A stretch of 29,227 bases of DNA, taken from the IMG/VR virus record IMGVR_UViG_3300025508_000111, positions 1-29,227 of that record. One strand, given 5' to 3'. Positions 5,736 through 27,789 of this stretch are shown in pieces; within the stretch, counting starts at the first letter, position 1; the number at the start of each line of letters is the position of its first letter. This DNA comes from a virus. The translations under genes were made by a program, and so were the position numbers. Under the pieces are notes generated by a model, which ran no database searches, was not told the origin of the DNA, and worked only from the letters and a program-made list of their open reading frames with translations.

Positions 5736-6039
5736 AACTGGGCTAAAGAAATGGTTTAGCGAAGATTGGGTAGATATCGGTGCCCCAAAGAAGGATGGCA
5801 AGTATCAATCGTGTGGCCGAAAAAACGCATCAAAAAAAAATGGCCGAGCTTACCCAAAGTGCGTACCGGCGGCAAAAGCGGCAAGCATGACGGAAGGTCA
5901 GAAAAAAAGTGCGGTAGCGCGAAAAAGATCTAAGAGACAAGGTGTGGGCGGAAAGCCTACAATGGTGAAAACATTCGCCGCGAAAGGCGGATCAATCAAC
6001 AAGAAACCGGGCAATTCCGGTTTATTTGGGAGGCGATAA
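5728..6039 (+). CDS. DUF5872-like small basic protein ending GLFGRR (103 aa)
   Basis: GTG 5728 is chosen because it gives MARTGLKKWFSEDWVDIGAP, the conserved N-terminus of this small family, and overlaps the previous gene by 8 nt; the ribosome-binding site is weak. The segment GAPKKDGKYQSCGRKNA followed by YPKCVPAAKAASMTEGQKKSA is the recognisable core, with two Cys that could pair or bind metal. The C-terminal 40 residues are Lys/Gly-rich and end in SGLFGRR, nearly the same as the end of the next protein. Probably a small virion or DNA-associated protein; its biochemical role is unknown. An upstream ATG in the same frame is rejected because it would add non-conserved residues. Confidence 0.72.
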   Translation: MARTGLKKWFSEDWVDIGAPKKDGKYQSCGRKNASKKNGRAYPKCVPAAKAASMTEGQKKSAVARKRSKRQGVGGKPTMVKTFAAKGGSINKKPGNSGLFGRR

Positions 6040-6650
6040 TGAAAAAGATGAAGGCAAAAGGGTACAGTCGTGGCGGCGCTCCAACAACACGCGCACAACG
6101 TCGATCTACGTTAAGCAAAGCGCAAAAAAATCTTTTAGATTCCGTTCAGGGACGAGAAGGCAGTAAGCAGTCAACAAGCGTAATTCAAGACCTGTCCGAT
6201 CAGTACGGCTACAAGCCCGGTAAAAGAGCTGGCGCTAAAGGCGGCATGGGCGGACGTAGGAAGGCGAAGCCGGGTGGTATGAACATGGGCGGTACAGTTG
6301 GTATGAAGCCGATTGACACAACAAAGCTTGGCGCTCTTCCTCCTAGCAGAAAAGTTCCTGCTATGGCGACAAAAGCGCCTTTGGGAGCGCCCGGAACAAA
6401 AAGACCGTCCACAATGAGATCTGGGCCTCGAGAAGAAAAACTTGCTGCTGCTAAGAAGGCAACAGCCATGCGCGGTGCTGCGGCGCGCCGATCAGGTGGT
6501 AGTACGCCACGCGGCATGAACACGGGCGGTGCAGCCATGAAGACCAAGGGTTACGCTAAGGGCGGTGCCGCGATGAAGACCAAGGGCGCAGCAAAAGGTG
6601 GAATCAAGAAACCATCCGCCAAAAAGACGGGATTATTTGGTCGTAGATAG
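6039..6650 (+). CDS. Lys/Gly/Ala-rich histone-like repeat protein ending GLFGRR (203 aa)
   Basis: 203 residues, very basic, with low-complexity Lys, Arg, Gly, Ala and Met. It contains short tandem repeats near the C-terminus: two copies of GGAAMKTKG separated by YAKGG-type linkers, plus GGMNMGG and GMNTGG. It ends KTGLFGRR, like the upstream protein. The start ATG overlaps the preceding TAA (TAATG). The composition suggests nucleic-acid binding or a disordered internal virion component packaged with the DNA, but no domain supports a specific role. The repeats probably evolve by slippage. Adjacent genes are virion-like, so a structural role is the best guess. Confidence 0.72.
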   Translation: MKKMKAKGYSRGGAPTTRAQRRSTLSKAQKNLLDSVQGREGSKQSTSVIQDLSDQYGYKPGKRAGAKGGMGGRRKAKPGGMNMGGTVGMKPIDTTKLGALPPSRKVPAMATKAPLGAPGTKRPSTMRSGPREEKLAAAKKATAMRGAAARRSGGSTPRGMNTGGAAMKTKGYAKGGAAMKTKGAAKGGIKKPSAKKTGLFGRR

Positions 6651-21300: not shown

Positions 21301-21338
21301 ATTGAGCAATTGTATAGGATTGTATATCATTGCACAAA
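21301..21338. promoter_or_regulatory. Tandem 10-bp ATTG repeats, candidate RHH operator with divergent promoters
   Basis: Units ATTGAGCA, ATTGTATAGG, ATTGTATATC and ATTGCACAAA start at 21301, 21309, 21319 and 21329, so three successive units are spaced exactly 10 bp. They lie between the RHH gene and the oxygenase gene. On the minus strand TTGTGC and TACAAT with a 17-bp spacer could drive the RHH gene. On the plus strand TATATC (21322-21327) could be a -10 box for the oxygenase. One helical-turn spacing is typical of cooperative RHH binding; this is inference. Confidence 0.55.
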
Positions 21339-22051
21339 TGTATGAAATGAAAAATTATATGTTGTCAATGCAGTCGCATTGGATGGTCAACCAGCCGCTC
21401 TACAAGGCGGTTCAGGAGACTGTTCCGATGATTGCTGAGTTCAGGGCTAGGGATGGCAGGGAGCGCCTACAGAAGACTCCTGTGTCTCAGCTATGCAAGA
21501 AGGTCTTCCCCGAGGTATACAAGGTGCCGTTGTTTCGCAGGCAGTTCTGCAAGATGTTGGTCGAAGAGATCAAGCACATGGAGCAGGAGATACCCTTTGA
21601 GCCGAATGAGGCTGAGGATGAGCTGAGGCAGATCCCAGAGATTGTGTTGCAAGAGCATGTGCCTGAGCTGTACCGCACGATGTGGTTTGTCGTGCAGAAC
21701 GTGCTGAATCCGATCTTCAATACGCTGTACCACAGGGACTGCCGGGACGTTTCTTCGATCCAGATTGCGAACTACAACCCCAAGGATAAACAGGCCGGCG
21801 CGTGGCATCACGACGAGAGCGCCGACATCAGCGTGGTGGTTCCCCTCAACACCGATGAGTACAAGGGTGGTGGCACAGAGTTTCATCGCCACGGCATCCT
21901 GAATCCTCTGCCTAGTGGACACGCATTGATATTCCCTTCCTTCACCAATCTGCACCGTGGCCTAGCGGTAGAGAGTGGAGACCGATACCTGTTGGTTTTC
22001 TGGCTGCACGACAAGAAGCGCCTGATCGAGCGGTACAACAACTTAGACTGA
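21338..22051 (+). CDS. 2-oxoglutarate/Fe(II)-dependent oxygenase, P4Hc type
   Basis: About 237 residues if the first ATG (21338) is used; ATGs at 21347, 21359 and 21368 are alternatives and no clear ribosome-binding site decides. The C-terminal half contains the double-stranded beta-helix signature: WHHDESADISVVVPLN with HxD iron ligands (about H157/D159), then GGGTEF, PSGHALIFPSF, LHRG (distal His about 206) and GDRYLLVFW (Arg about 216 for 2-oxoglutarate). Such oxygenases are common in marine phages, where they hydroxylate proteins or nucleic acids. The substrate is unknown. It stands alone next to a regulator, not in the structural operon. Confidence 0.82.
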   Translation: MYEMKNYMLSMQSHWMVNQPLYKAVQETVPMIAEFRARDGRERLQKTPVSQLCKKVFPEVYKVPLFRRQFCKMLVEEIKHMEQEIPFEPNEAEDELRQIPEIVLQEHVPELYRTMWFVVQNVLNPIFNTLYHRDCRDVSSIQIANYNPKDKQAGAWHHDESADISVVVPLNTDEYKGGGTEFHRHGILNPLPSGHALIFPSFTNLHRGLAVESGDRYLLVFWLHDKKRLIERYNNLD

Positions 22052-22053
22052 CC

Positions 22054-22077
22054 TGCAAATATTTACATTTATTTGCA
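22054..22077. promoter_or_regulatory. 24-bp dyad, operator-like (copy A)
   Basis: TGCAAATA (22054-22061) and TATTTGCA (22070-22077) are perfect inverted 8-bp arms separated by 8 bp. The same geometry, TGCAAAAT-N8-ATTATGCA, occurs at 25576-25599 in the replication promoter region. This suggests the binding site of one dimeric regulator, possibly the HTH protein at 24440-24838. It could also act as a weak hairpin after the oxygenase gene, but there is no T-run. Confidence 0.6.
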
Positions 22078-22085
22078 TAAAAGTG

Positions 22086-22114
22086 TGTACAACGACACGG
22101 CATTATGCGATTAT
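22086..22114 (+). promoter_or_regulatory. Candidate promoter for the gene at 22157
   Basis: TGTACA (22086-22091) is separated by 17 bp from GATTAT (22109-22114). The region from 22067 to 22105 resembles the minus-strand promoter region at 1080-1120: both have ATTTATTTG, then 16-18 bp, then TGYACAWCGACACGGSATYA. A start near 22121 would give a leader of about 36 nt that includes the GGGGGC hairpin. Confidence 0.5.
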
Positions 22115-22153
22115 TCCTTTGTCGGGGGCGCTTGCCCCCATAACCAAAGGGAA
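22114..22153 (+). promoter_or_regulatory. Leader hairpin that can hide the ribosome-binding site
   Basis: GGGGGC (22124-22129) and GCCCCC (22134-22139) form a strong 6-bp stem with a GCTT loop. An outer pair, CCTTTG (22116-22121) with CAAAGG (22145-22150), extends it. The outer 3' arm contains the AAAGGGA ribosome-binding sequence of the ATG at 22157. Opening of the outer stem would be needed for efficient initiation. If transcription starts near 22121 the outer stem would be partly missing, so the start site matters. Confidence 0.5.
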
Positions 22154-22156
22154 AAC

Positions 22157-22591
22157 ATGATGAACAAGTACCACGAAATTGTTTTAGAAAAAATCGCAAA
22201 GGCTAAAGAAGAGTTTGCAAAATGCAACATCGATGCTGATGTCGCAAGAAAAGCGTCAGCTCACCAAAGATCGCTTTTTAAAAAATGGAAGGACGAAGAA
22301 GGATTTGATTTGATGGATCATCAATCTTGGTTGATCGAAAACGAAGATGCGGTTCATGCTGCTCAGTTCCTTAGAGAGATAGAGCTTCTTGAAGGCAGTT
22401 TAAAGGTAGAGCTTATTTACGTTTCAACCAAGTATGTAATGACTGACAGCGAGCTGCTTTCCCCCGCAGGATTTTACTTTGACGAGCGAGTTTTTGTAAA
22501 ACCATCGACAGGTGTTTTTATCATGACCGATAAATTGCCCAGATACAGCAACATTCCTTATTACGACATTGACAAGGTGGCGGCGGCTTAA
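22157..22591 (+). CDS. Hypothetical protein (144 aa) upstream of hammerhead ribozyme
   Basis: The ATG at 22157 (or the next one at 22160) is preferred over an earlier in-frame TTG, because AAAGGG lies 5-8 nt upstream and the earlier region is leader structure. The product is 144 residues, helical and charged in the first two thirds (KIAKAKEEFAKCNIDADVAR, HQRSLFKKWKDEEGFDLMD), with a short beta tail. No domain is recognised. The end codes for VAAA and its TAA lies in the loop of a GGCGG/CCGCC hairpin (22582-22599), immediately followed by the ribozyme. It probably shares a transcript with the gene at 22672. Confidence 0.72.
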   Translation: MMNKYHEIVLEKIAKAKEEFAKCNIDADVARKASAHQRSLFKKWKDEEGFDLMDHQSWLIENEDAVHAAQFLREIELLEGSLKVELIYVSTKYVMTDSELLSPAGFYFDERVFVKPSTGVFIMTDKLPRYSNIPYYDIDKVAAA

Positions 22592-22599
22592 TCACCGCC
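22582..22599 (+). other. Stop-codon hairpin, copy 3
   Basis: GGCGG (22582-22586) pairs with CCGCC (22595-22599) around an 8-base loop that contains the TAA stop of the gene at 22157-22591. No T-run follows; the hammerhead ribozyme begins 5 nt later. It has the same logic as the stop-codon hairpins at 378-393 and 671-686. Confidence 0.6.
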
Positions 22600-22604
22600 C
22601 CTTC

Positions 22605-22654
22605 GGGTCTACCAGTTCGGAGCTGGTACTGATGAGGCCACTAGGCCGAAACCC
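22605..22654 (+). ncRNA. Hammerhead ribozyme, type III
   Basis: All conserved core positions are present in order. Stem III is GGGU (22605-22608) with ACCC (22651-22654). C17 is 22609 in a GUC cleavage triplet. Stem I is UACCAG (22610-22615) with CUGGUA (22623-22628) and a 7-nt loop. The core CUGAUGA is at 22629-22635. Stem II is GGCC (22636-22639) with GGCC (22644-22647) and an ACUA loop. GAA is at 22648-22650, and A22651 pairs with U22608. Self-cleavage is expected after 22609. It lies in the 80-nt gap between two genes and ends 5 nt before the next ribosome-binding site, so cleavage would split the two cistrons. Stem III has only 4 bp, so activity in isolation may be modest; stabilising loop I-loop II contacts cannot be judged by eye. 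Confidence 0.92.
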
Positions 22655-22671
22655 AAAACAAGGAGATAGTG

Positions 22672-23079
22672 ATGGAACAACAACAACTTTTAGAAGTCGC
22701 AAACGATTTGACCAACGACAACATTTGTGACCTGATTAATATGGTCGCGCCTCGGCTCGACGTTTACTTCGGTCTTTTAAACATGAGATGCCTCAGCTCT
22801 GGCGTTTCCTTTGCCTCAATGAACGGCACGATCATTCAGGTCAACTGCGAGACGGCAGATCTCAAAGACCTTGCGGATGATGATTTTATCGCCGGCGCAA
22901 TTGAGAAGACTACCTTGAAGGAATTGAGCAGGGCGAAGGTCTTGGCTAATTCGGCTCATGCGCTGGCTGAGAAGATTAATAAAGCAAGATTTGAGGGCAA
23001 AAAAATAAGCGACAAGCAAACGGTGAAGCTCTGCGAAGTGTTGGCCGTTCTTAATGGACTTTTGGAAGAAGCGGCTTAG
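22672..23079 (+). CDS. Hypothetical protein (135 aa) downstream of hammerhead ribozyme
   Basis: ATG 22672 is chosen over a GTG one codon earlier because the AAGGAG site (22660-22665) is 6 nt away. The product begins MEQQQLLEVANDLTNDNICD and has a central hydrophobic segment (LINMVAPRLDVYFGLLNMR), acidic DLKDLADDDF and a helical C-terminus ending LLEEAA. No family is recognised. The reading frame is flanked by a self-cleaving ribozyme on the 5' side and an intrinsic terminator on the 3' side, so the released RNA 22610-23092 would carry just this gene. Such proteins in phage early regions are usually accessory or host-takeover factors; this one is unassigned. Confidence 0.75.
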   Translation: MEQQQLLEVANDLTNDNICDLINMVAPRLDVYFGLLNMRCLSSGVSFASMNGTIIQVNCETADLKDLADDDFIAGAIEKTTLKELSRAKVLANSAHALAEKINKARFEGKKISDKQTVKLCEVLAVLNGLLEEAA

Positions 23080-23092
23080 GCCGCTTTTTTTT
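23069..23092 (+). terminator. Intrinsic terminator containing the stop codon
   Basis: AAGCGGC (23069-23075) pairs with GCCGCTT (23080-23086) around the loop TTAG, which includes the TAG stop of the upstream gene. Eight T residues (23085-23092) follow. This is a textbook rho-independent terminator and the fourth stop-in-loop hairpin in the window, the only one with a T-run. Confidence 0.88.
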
Positions 23093-23119
23093 GCCAGTAA
23101 TTTGACTTAGGATTAAGCT

Positions 23120-23296
23120 ATGCAAAGAGAATCAAACATACCAACCATCCGCGTGTTAGCGATGATCGATAAGATTGTCGATGAGGAAGACGACGATGTA
23201 AGAGCCTACGAGCTGAGCAGGATACACGACTACCTTGCGATGAAGTTCAACAGGGAAACCGGAAGGCTGGCAAGTGAAGAACTAAACAGGCTTTGA
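23120..23296 (+). CDS. Small acidic hypothetical protein (58 aa)
   Basis: Open frame of 58 codons from ATG 23120 with AGGA 7 nt upstream. The product is MQRESNIPTIRVLAMIDKIV, then DEEDDDVRAYELSRIHDYLA, then a basic end. It is helical and acidic. It lies just after the terminator of the previous gene and converges with the minus gene at 23282-23509, overlapping by 15 nt. No family is recognised. Small acidic phage proteins include DNA mimics and inhibitors, but nothing here proves that. Confidence 0.6.
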   Translation: MQRESNIPTIRVLAMIDKIVDEEDDDVRAYELSRIHDYLAMKFNRETGRLASEELNRL

Positions 23297-25566: not shown

Positions 25567-25620
25567 TTGTGTGTTTGCAAAATGTTGTACTATTATGCAC
25601 ATCTGGGAAAACGTGATCAA
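25567..25620. promoter_or_regulatory. Overlapping divergent promoters of SSB-like and primase-helicase genes
   Basis: For the primase-helicase, TTGTGT (25567-25572) and TATTAT (25591-25596) are spaced by 18 bp. For the SSB-like gene on the minus strand, TTGATC (25615-25620) and CATAAT (25592-25597) are spaced by 17 bp. The -10 boxes overlap almost base for base on opposite strands, so RNA polymerase can use only one promoter at a time. The operator-like dyad at 25576-25599 covers both -10 boxes. Confidence 0.6.
25576..25599. promoter_or_regulatory. 24-bp dyad, operator-like (copy B)
   Basis: TGCAAAAT (25576-25583) and ATTATGCA (25592-25599) are inverted arms with one mismatch, separated by 8 bp. 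Copy A at 22054-22077 has the same arm length and spacing. The position over the divergent -10 boxes suggests a repressor that shuts both promoters. Confidence 0.55.
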
Positions 25621-25632
25621 GGTGAATTTTAC

Positions 25633-27789
25633 ATGGGATTAAAAATAACTGACGGCAAAAGCAAAGACTTCAGCCGGCCATTGAGTGGTGACCTGCGAGG
25701 TGAGTTCGAGTCTTTTCTTTTGTCGAATGGTATGACGGTAGAGTCAAAGAAGGGGTTAGTCATAGGCGGTGACATTGGCCGCGCCTACATGGACGTTGGT
25801 GGCAAGCAGAAGCTCGTCGGGTGGTATCAGGTGTGGTTGGATCAGGACGTACCCTTCGGTCGCTGTGGTGACCGCACGGTGAGCAACGATGAGCCGACCG
25901 CGACTTGGAAGCCTGACAATGCGGTGAACCATAAGATGACCGACGAGGAGCGCGAGCAGATCAGGATGCTCTCGGAGGAGAAGGCCAAAGAGACCGAGCA
26001 GAATCAACGTGAAGCCGCAAGGCTTGCGAAGGAGCGGTGGGATAGCTACCCCGAAGCGACTGAGGACAACCTATACCTTCAGCGCAAGGGTGTAGAGAAC
26101 CATGGTCTCAGGCAGCGGGGCAATCGTCTGGTTTTGCCCATGCTTGATAAGAAGCTTGAGATCGTTGGGTTGCAGTACATCGACGGCGATGGCCAGAAGC
26201 TTTTTATGAAGCACAGCAAGAAGGCTGGATCATTCTTTGTCATCGACCCACAGCAGATGCGGACGGCGCACACCATTAATTATGTCGAGGGATATGCCAC
26301 GGGTGCGAGTTACTACGCAGACCTTGGTCAGCCCGTGGTTATCTGTTTCGACGCATACAATCTATCCCCAGTCGCAGAGACAATCAGCGGATGGTTTCCC
26401 GAGGCTAAGCATGTCTTCATTGCCGACTGTGATGACACCAAGACGGGCGAGGTTGAGGCAGTCAAAGCCGCACAGGTGGTGCGTCGTATCGGCGCTCAGG
26501 CCGAGGTTCTGATACCCCAGAGCAAGGGTGACTACAACGACCACGCGCTGGAGGGTGAGCTGCTTCCCGACTTGAACAAGGTTGATGTGCCGATCGAGTA
26601 CCAGTGGAACACCAGCGAGAAGGGCCGAATGCTAAACACTAAGGACAATGTTCGGGGTGTGCTGACGGTCAATCAGATTGATGTGCGCTACAACGTGATC
26701 AAGAAGGCGATGGAGATCAACATACCGCACAGCAACTTCATAGCCGATATGCGTGACGAGTCGAGCCTGATCGAGATCGAAGACCGTTGTATCCAGATTG
26801 GAGTGCCGCACCAGAAGGTGCGAGACTACCTAAAGCTCTTAGCCAAGGAGTACAACCCTGTTAAGGAATGGATCGAGAGTAGGCCATGGGATGGCCGCAG
26901 TAGGATGCAGGAGTTCCTGAGCACGATCAAGAGCACCAACGAGCCATTGAAGGAAATGCTGATGACCAAGTGGCTTATCGGTTGCGTGGCCGCAGCGTGT
27001 GAGCCAAACGGTGTATCCCTCGAAGGCATCTTGGTCTTTCAGGGCGCTCAGGGGCTAGGTAAGACCCTCTGGTTTAAGCGTTTGGCGGATTACGAGAAGG
27101 GCTGGCTGTTAGAGGGTGCGACACTGAACCCGAATGACAAGGACAGCGTGAAGCAGGTTGTGAGCCACTGGGTAGCAGAGCTGGGTGAGCTGGGCAGCAC
27201 GTTCAAGAGGGCGGACATAGACTCTCTCAAGCAGTTCACGGGCAAGAAGGTGGACGAGCTGCGCCTACCCTATGATCGGGCCAGCACCACGTACCAGCGC
27301 AGAACCGCATTCTACGGCAGCGTCAACGAGCGTGAGTTCCTGATTGATACCACAGGTAACAGACGGTTCTGGGTCGTCGCCGTGACCGATATCAATGCAA
27401 ACCATGGGATCGACATGCAGCAGTTGTGGGCGGAGATCAGGGAGACGCTGTACCAGAAGGAGAGCTGGTATCTCAACGCAGAGGAGCGCGAGATGCTCCA
27501 GAGCAGCAACGAGACCTACCGCACCCAGAGCACCGTCGAAGATCTAATCCTCGAACACGTACACTTCCAGAGCCAGAACACCAAGCCAGTTCAGATGACA
27601 AAGCTGCTCCGAGACCTCGGAATCAGTCAACCAAGGATGCCGGATATCAAGGATGCAAGCAGGGTACTGGCGCAGTTTGGGCTAGAACCTCGCAAAAGTA
27701 ATGGCAAAAAAGTGTACGACTTGGACTACACGAAGGTCGAGATTGGGAGTGCGGACAAGTTTAGTGATAGCTGGGGCAAGGATTTCTAA
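25633..27789 (+). CDS. Toprim/VirE-family primase-helicase (718 aa)
   Basis: ATG 25633 gives MGLKITDGKSKDFSRPLSGD; AAGGTGA lies upstream and the frame before it is promoter DNA. The N-terminal third has a primase-like region with a Toprim motif: VEGYATG (E219) and ADCDD (D265, D267). The C-terminal half is a VirE/VapE-type P-loop helicase: FQGAQGLGKTLWF Walker A at about 471-478, WVAELGEL acidic Walker B-like at about 514-520, and SVNEREFLIDTTGNRRFWVV at 563-582. It would prime and unwind DNA at the replication fork, as in P4 alpha-type proteins. It is divergent from the SSB-like gene and followed by an origin-like region. Confidence 0.88.
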   Translation: MGLKITDGKSKDFSRPLSGDLRGEFESFLLSNGMTVESKKGLVIGGDIGRAYMDVGGKQKLVGWYQVWLDQDVPFGRCGDRTVSNDEPTATWKPDNAVNHKMTDEEREQIRMLSEEKAKETEQNQREAARLAKERWDSYPEATEDNLYLQRKGVENHGLRQRGNRLVLPMLDKKLEIVGLQYIDGDGQKLFMKHSKKAGSFFVIDPQQMRTAHTINYVEGYATGASYYADLGQPVVICFDAYNLSPVAETISGWFPEAKHVFIADCDDTKTGEVEAVKAAQVVRRIGAQAEVLIPQSKGDYNDHALEGELLPDLNKVDVPIEYQWNTSEKGRMLNTKDNVRGVLTVNQIDVRYNVIKKAMEINIPHSNFIADMRDESSLIEIEDRCIQIGVPHQKVRDYLKLLAKEYNPVKEWIESRPWDGRSRMQEFLSTIKSTNEPLKEMLMTKWLIGCVAAACEPNGVSLEGILVFQGAQGLGKTLWFKRLADYEKGWLLEGATLNPNDKDSVKQVVSHWVAELGELGSTFKRADIDSLKQFTGKKVDELRLPYDRASTTYQRRTAFYGSVNEREFLIDTTGNRRFWVVAVTDINANHGIDMQQLWAEIRETLYQKESWYLNAEEREMLQSSNETYRTQSTVEDLILEHVHFQSQNTKPVQMTKLLRDLGISQPRMPDIKDASRVLAQFGLEPRKSNGKKVYDLDYTKVEIGSADKFSDSWGKDF

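Follow-up and report, generated by a model that had tools for sequence, protein, structure and literature searches.

The window, the whole stretch of 29,227 nucleotides analysed here (IMG/VR virus record IMGVR_UViG_3300025508_000111), carries between two phage genes of the same strand an RNA motif that is, on the evidence of its sequence, a genuine type III hammerhead ribozyme (plus strand, 22605–22654). In viral contigs, hammerheads of type III are preceded by an abutting G+C hairpin far more often than those of types I and II, and the window fits this rule, its stop-codon hairpin (22574–22603) adjoining the ribozyme. The arrangement suggests that phage hammerheads give messages clean, structured 3′ ends without stopping transcription. 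What hammerheads do for phages has been a question ever since they were discovered there, and a rule that ties circular permutation to upstream context makes one specific role, the formation of protected mRNA 3′ ends between cistrons, directly testable.

Core, stems and covariance score of the window hammerhead

Stem III pairs GGGU (22605–22608) with ACCC (22651–22654) and is open, while stem I (UACCAG, 22610–22615, with CUGGUA, 22623–22628) and stem II (GGCC, 22636–22639, with GGCC, 22644–22647) are closed by the loops UUCGGAG and ACUA, respectively, giving helices of 4, 6 and 4 bp. The core strands are CUGAUGA (22629–22635) and GAA (22648–22650). The cleavage triplet GUC lies at 22607–22609 with C22609 as C17, and A22651 and U22608 form the A15.1–U16.1 pair. 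The motif thus has both an NUH triplet with the A15.1–U16.1 pair and the CUGANGA/GAA core, and cleavage is expected after C22609. The core, the triplet, the A15.1–U16.1 pair and the three stems had been named in the initial annotation, and each was recovered in its place.

In a cmscan search of all Rfam (4227 families), the single strong hit of the window was Hammerhead_3 (RF00008) at 22602–22657, with 38.7 bits and an E-value of 3.6e-5; when RF00008 was searched alone, the E-value was 8.8e-9. A type III descriptor made looser than the observed sequence had a single match in the window, and 300 dinucleotide shuffles of the full window sequence gave two. Given these covariance E-values and the rarity of the relaxed descriptor in shuffles, we do not regard the ribozyme as a chance occurrence.

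The score of 38.7 bits is below the Rfam gathering cut-off of 48.5 bits for RF00008, as were the scores of all other phage type III hammerheads scanned (29.4–47.6 bits; contigs L002, L003, L026, L034, L050, L060, L064, L068, L073, L074, L095, L098, L115, L121, L126, L153 and L165). We did not count this against class membership, because the cut-off is a curator's threshold for listing and not a structural feature, and because the scanned phage copies never reach it. A covariance search had been proposed as a check in the initial annotation; the score obtained supports the assignment, and the core is intact in the relatives L002 and L003. Since the gathering score misses phage copies, annotation at the default threshold leaves them out, and phage type III hammerheads are probably under-annotated. 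The window ribozyme shares with RF00008 the CUGAUGA/GAA core, the GUC triplet, the A15.1–U16.1 pair, the three stems and the open stem III; it differs in its score, in its loop II (ACUA) and loop I (UUCGGAG), and in lying between phage cistrons and not in a rolling-circle RNA. Loop I starts with UU and loop II reads A..A throughout the subfamily, and no clear pairing between the two loops was found. In a predicted 544-nt transcript that begins with the upstream gene, the ribozyme was part of the minimum free energy structure. The full ribozyme fold held 7–24% of the ensemble in contexts of 80–141 nt and 544 nt, a low weight explained by competition from upstream sequence for the 4 bp of stem III.

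The gene boundary and its relatives

The upstream gene (22157–22591, plus strand, 144 aa) had no family match and the downstream gene (22672–23079, plus strand, 135 aa) no confident one; a fold search for the downstream protein was ruled out by a model of too poor quality (pLDDT 51). In the 80-nt gap between them (22592–22671), the ribozyme is followed by a Shine-Dalgarno sequence, AAGGAG (22661–22666), and a terminator-like hairpin with a T-run, AGCGGC TTAG GCCGCT TTTTTTT (23070–23092), overlaps the downstream stop codon. Gap, Shine-Dalgarno sequence and 3′ hairpin were thus all present as had been described. The G+C-rich hairpin at 22574–22603 spans the upstream stop codon (UAA, 22589–22591) and abuts the ribozyme; the fold of 22572–22609 was calculated at −14.6 kcal/mol, and no T-run stands behind this hairpin. 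A promoter scan gave nothing above chance. The initial annotation had called the two genes early, for which we found nothing, both lying on the far side of the block with head and tape-measure-like genes. A 2OG-Fe(II) oxygenase-like gene (21302–22051) lies upstream of the ribozyme and a VapE-like primase/helicase gene (25567–27789) downstream. In known phages there was no DNA match to 22050–23120 and only a chance-level match to the ribozyme. The primases of characterised phages, and those encoded by loci in Dyella, Pseudomonas and Stutzerimonas genomes, are only distant relatives of the primase here (33–41% identity), too distant for a host to be assigned.

Thirteen loci in IMG/VR were related to the downstream gene and three to the upstream gene. 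Just two contigs have kept the ribozyme (L002/L015/L022 and L003/L016), and both carry the same pair of genes. There it is identical to that of the window, the nearest change being T22603C in the spacer just 5′ of the ribozyme, and the stop-codon hairpin is present with one change; the downstream protein has meanwhile diverged to 79% identity. The ribozyme was absent from L017, where the same upstream gene has a different neighbour, and from L004–L011, where the same downstream gene has one; at several such ribozyme-free boundaries a stop-codon hairpin leads straight into the Shine-Dalgarno sequence. We considered whether L002 had recombined at the ribozyme, and dropped the idea because the downstream gene, too, is nearly identical at its start. 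On the minus strand of the window, two ribozyme-free boundaries share one and the same stop-codon hairpin, GGCGGCGTAAGCCGCC-CAAGGGAGAAG (hairpins starting at 393 and 686), which leads into a Shine-Dalgarno sequence; in the related phage L050 the same hairpin is followed by the ribozyme.

Matches to the ribozyme of 86–91% identity over 48–84 nt were found in L040, L060, L098 and L126. The match in L040 lies at another gene boundary of a related phage, with a weaker stem III, and the other three contigs have almost nothing else in common with the window. Judged from these contigs, the ribozyme is an interchangeable part of the boundary and not part of a gene, because close copies stand at other boundaries and in unrelated phages and because it is absent beside either gene elsewhere. 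For the same reasons, namely relatives of both genes that lack it and close copies that flank other genes, we rejected the idea of a dedicated regulator of either flanking gene. In L040 (5815–6171), a small gene on the minus strand (5872–6105) was seen between two hammerheads, with a hairpin and a type III copy in front of it and a type I copy directly behind its stop codon.

Hammerhead type and the upstream hairpin in phage contigs

Public viral contigs were scanned with the pattern CTGATGAGGCC(3-8)GGCCGAAAC and its GTCC equivalent, each giving at least 120 stretches, so that the sample consists of hammerheads with GGCC or GTCC in stem II and core positions fixed by the search patterns. Among the matches listed, 112 of 116 distinct flanked matches of the first set had complete type I or III stems; shuffling of the flanks left a mean of about two complete hammerheads. 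Redundancy was removed by shared 8-mers only, which removes the relatedness of the phages in part, so that Fisher p-values treat the copies as more independent than they are. Genes in the contigs were delimited with simple ORF rules and not by a gene finder. On this basis, of 183 copies of types I and III left after redundancy was removed, half (50%) had genes of the same strand on both sides, against 4% for the opposite strand, and the families of the neighbouring genes hardly repeated. In 70 type III copies the stems varied by compensating pairs, with all four Watson-Crick types at stem I positions 1–5 and stem III position 3; detection itself required pairing, and this variation is to be weighed jointly with the result of the flank shuffling.

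We then scored a G+C hairpin as abutting when it was exact, had 5 bp or more and ended within 8 nt of the ribozyme. Among the matches listed, such a hairpin preceded 35 of 68 type III copies, in contrast to 3 of 112 of type I and 18 of 200 of type II. The difference was seen in the first set (type III 15/38, type I 1/49) and again in the second, which was gathered afterwards with the other pattern (20/30 and 2/63). With shuffled flanks, hairpins appeared in 2–6% of the type I and III sets and in 3% for type II, for which the 200 copies were non-redundant. The low rate in type II was a prediction written down before the test: no extra hairpin was expected there, because a type II hammerhead leaves its stem III as a hairpin at the end of the 5′ product.

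Ribozyme-free boundaries of the same contigs have hairpins as well. Where the contig carries type III, I or II, the rate is 27, 24 or 29%, respectively, compared with 55, 8 and 18.5% at the ribozyme boundaries. We rejected lineage or composition as the source of the rule, since the ribozyme-free boundaries are alike whatever the ribozyme type. About half of the type III copies are without an exact hairpin, and since hairpins stand at about a quarter of the ribozyme-free boundaries, the hairpin of a single case could have arisen earlier and independently of the ribozyme. Type III was not set apart from ordinary boundaries by the overall fold z-score of the 40 upstream nucleotides; the separation comes only from the position of the hairpin, abutting the ribozyme, and from comparing the types with one another. 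The median distance from the upstream stop codon was −1 and 0 nt for types I and II and 23–31 nt for type III. The initial annotation had given the stop-codon hairpin no role, whereas its distribution over the hammerhead types suggests that it is of importance; the context, which had been judged unusual, turned out to be a common one, as the order of hairpin, type III hammerhead, Shine-Dalgarno sequence and start recurs in phages. One hairpin, GTGTCTTC-AAAGACAC or close variants of it, was found before type III copies in L153, L158, L165, L180, L182, L196, L218, L224 and L246.

Probable processing between cistrons

We consider it likely that the ribozyme cuts in cis after C22609 and acts as an interchangeable, protein-independent processing site that makes separate mRNAs with structured ends. 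In the cell, a two-gene transcript would be cut between its cistrons, parting the upstream gene from its downstream partner. The upstream mRNA would end in the hairpin 22574–22603 plus six nucleotides with a 2′,3′-cyclic phosphate, an end resembling the hairpin end of a terminated transcript, and the downstream mRNA would start with a 5′-hydroxyl, carry the body of the ribozyme as its leader and run about 480 nt to the terminator at 23070–23092. The benefit to the phage may be separate lifetimes for neighbouring genes while RNA polymerase is not stopped. In enterobacteria, 3′ hairpins slow 3′-to-5′ exonucleases, and 5′-hydroxyl ends avoid the decay that depends on a 5′-monophosphate. Types I and II would keep on their 5′ cleavage product a structured end from the ribozyme itself, whereas on the product of type III no more than the 5′ strand of stem III would remain; a separate hairpin would supply the missing structure and protect the 3′ end. 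We favour a role at the 3′ end of the upstream message because the extra hairpin fills the gap left by type III. With somewhat less assurance, we lean towards the broader view that all three permutations form a common system for phage mRNA 3′ ends between genes, replacing terminators, in which types I and II at the stop codon supply the end themselves and type III does so together with a hairpin, the window being one instance. The type III assignment and the cleavage site of the initial annotation are backed by sequence, covariance score and wide recurrence. Its proposal that a two-gene transcript would be split has the same support, though not as regulation dedicated to this gene pair.

The cut could instead serve the downstream gene, through a decay-resistant 5′-hydroxyl end or a freed ribosome-binding site. 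The distance from ribozyme to start codon is nearly constant (median 19–25 nt where a Shine-Dalgarno sequence and start were found) and the 40 nt after the ribozyme are unstructured, as this would predict. However, the permutations leave quite different 5′ leaders (the whole ribozyme, half of it or a few nucleotides) and yet all are used, and what varies with the permutation is found upstream, so we think such a function improbable. That the ribozyme is mainly a mobile or recombination module, which moves from one phage gene boundary to another and hardly affects expression, appears more doubtful still. The copies of 86–91% identity at other boundaries, some of them in phages with no other close relationship, the patchy presence and the changing neighbour families would agree with it. 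The strong strand bias relative to the genes, a catalytic core that stays intact while the stems change in compensating pairs, and the dependence of the hairpin rule on the geometry of cleavage do not, and these three together point to selection on RNA function. That the ribozyme is a decaying or inactive relic is very unlikely. Its score under the gathering cut-off, the short stem III with its competing folds and the weaker stem III of L040 might suggest decay, but all core positions are intact, other phage type III copies score similarly, and the ribozyme of L002 and L003 is unchanged although the downstream protein has fallen to 79% identity. A processing site that forms the upstream 3′ end thus remains the reading we prefer.

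Such a site has a parallel in the glmS ribozyme, which also cleaves a bacterial mRNA in cis and leaves a 5′-hydroxyl end; that ribozyme differs in having another fold, in needing a ligand and in lying within a regulated leader rather than between two cistrons. The window ribozyme is itself new, while phage hammerheads as a kind are already known. They were reported in 2011 (Perreault et al., PMC3088659), and the accessible text of that paper and of PMC7761336 covers all hammerhead types in phages, with mRNA processing as their likely job. Like the hammerheads described in the accessible part of PMC3088659, which lie in phage intergenic regions flanking single genes, that of the window has phage neighbours on the same strand whose identity is not constant; in contrast to them, only a single copy was found here, and the same part of the paper does not describe a stop-codon hairpin or its restriction to type III. 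An upstream hairpin that depends on permutation was not found in the passages, titles and abstracts of open-licence papers that the literature search covered, which is weak evidence of novelty.

Three further contigs from the scans deserve mention. L030 carries seven type I hammerheads within 10 kb of one phage contig, L260 has six type II pattern matches within 8.5 kb, and in L067 (7026–7119) the stem III loop of a type I hammerhead contains a direct repeat of CATGAGTCCGCAAATTG.
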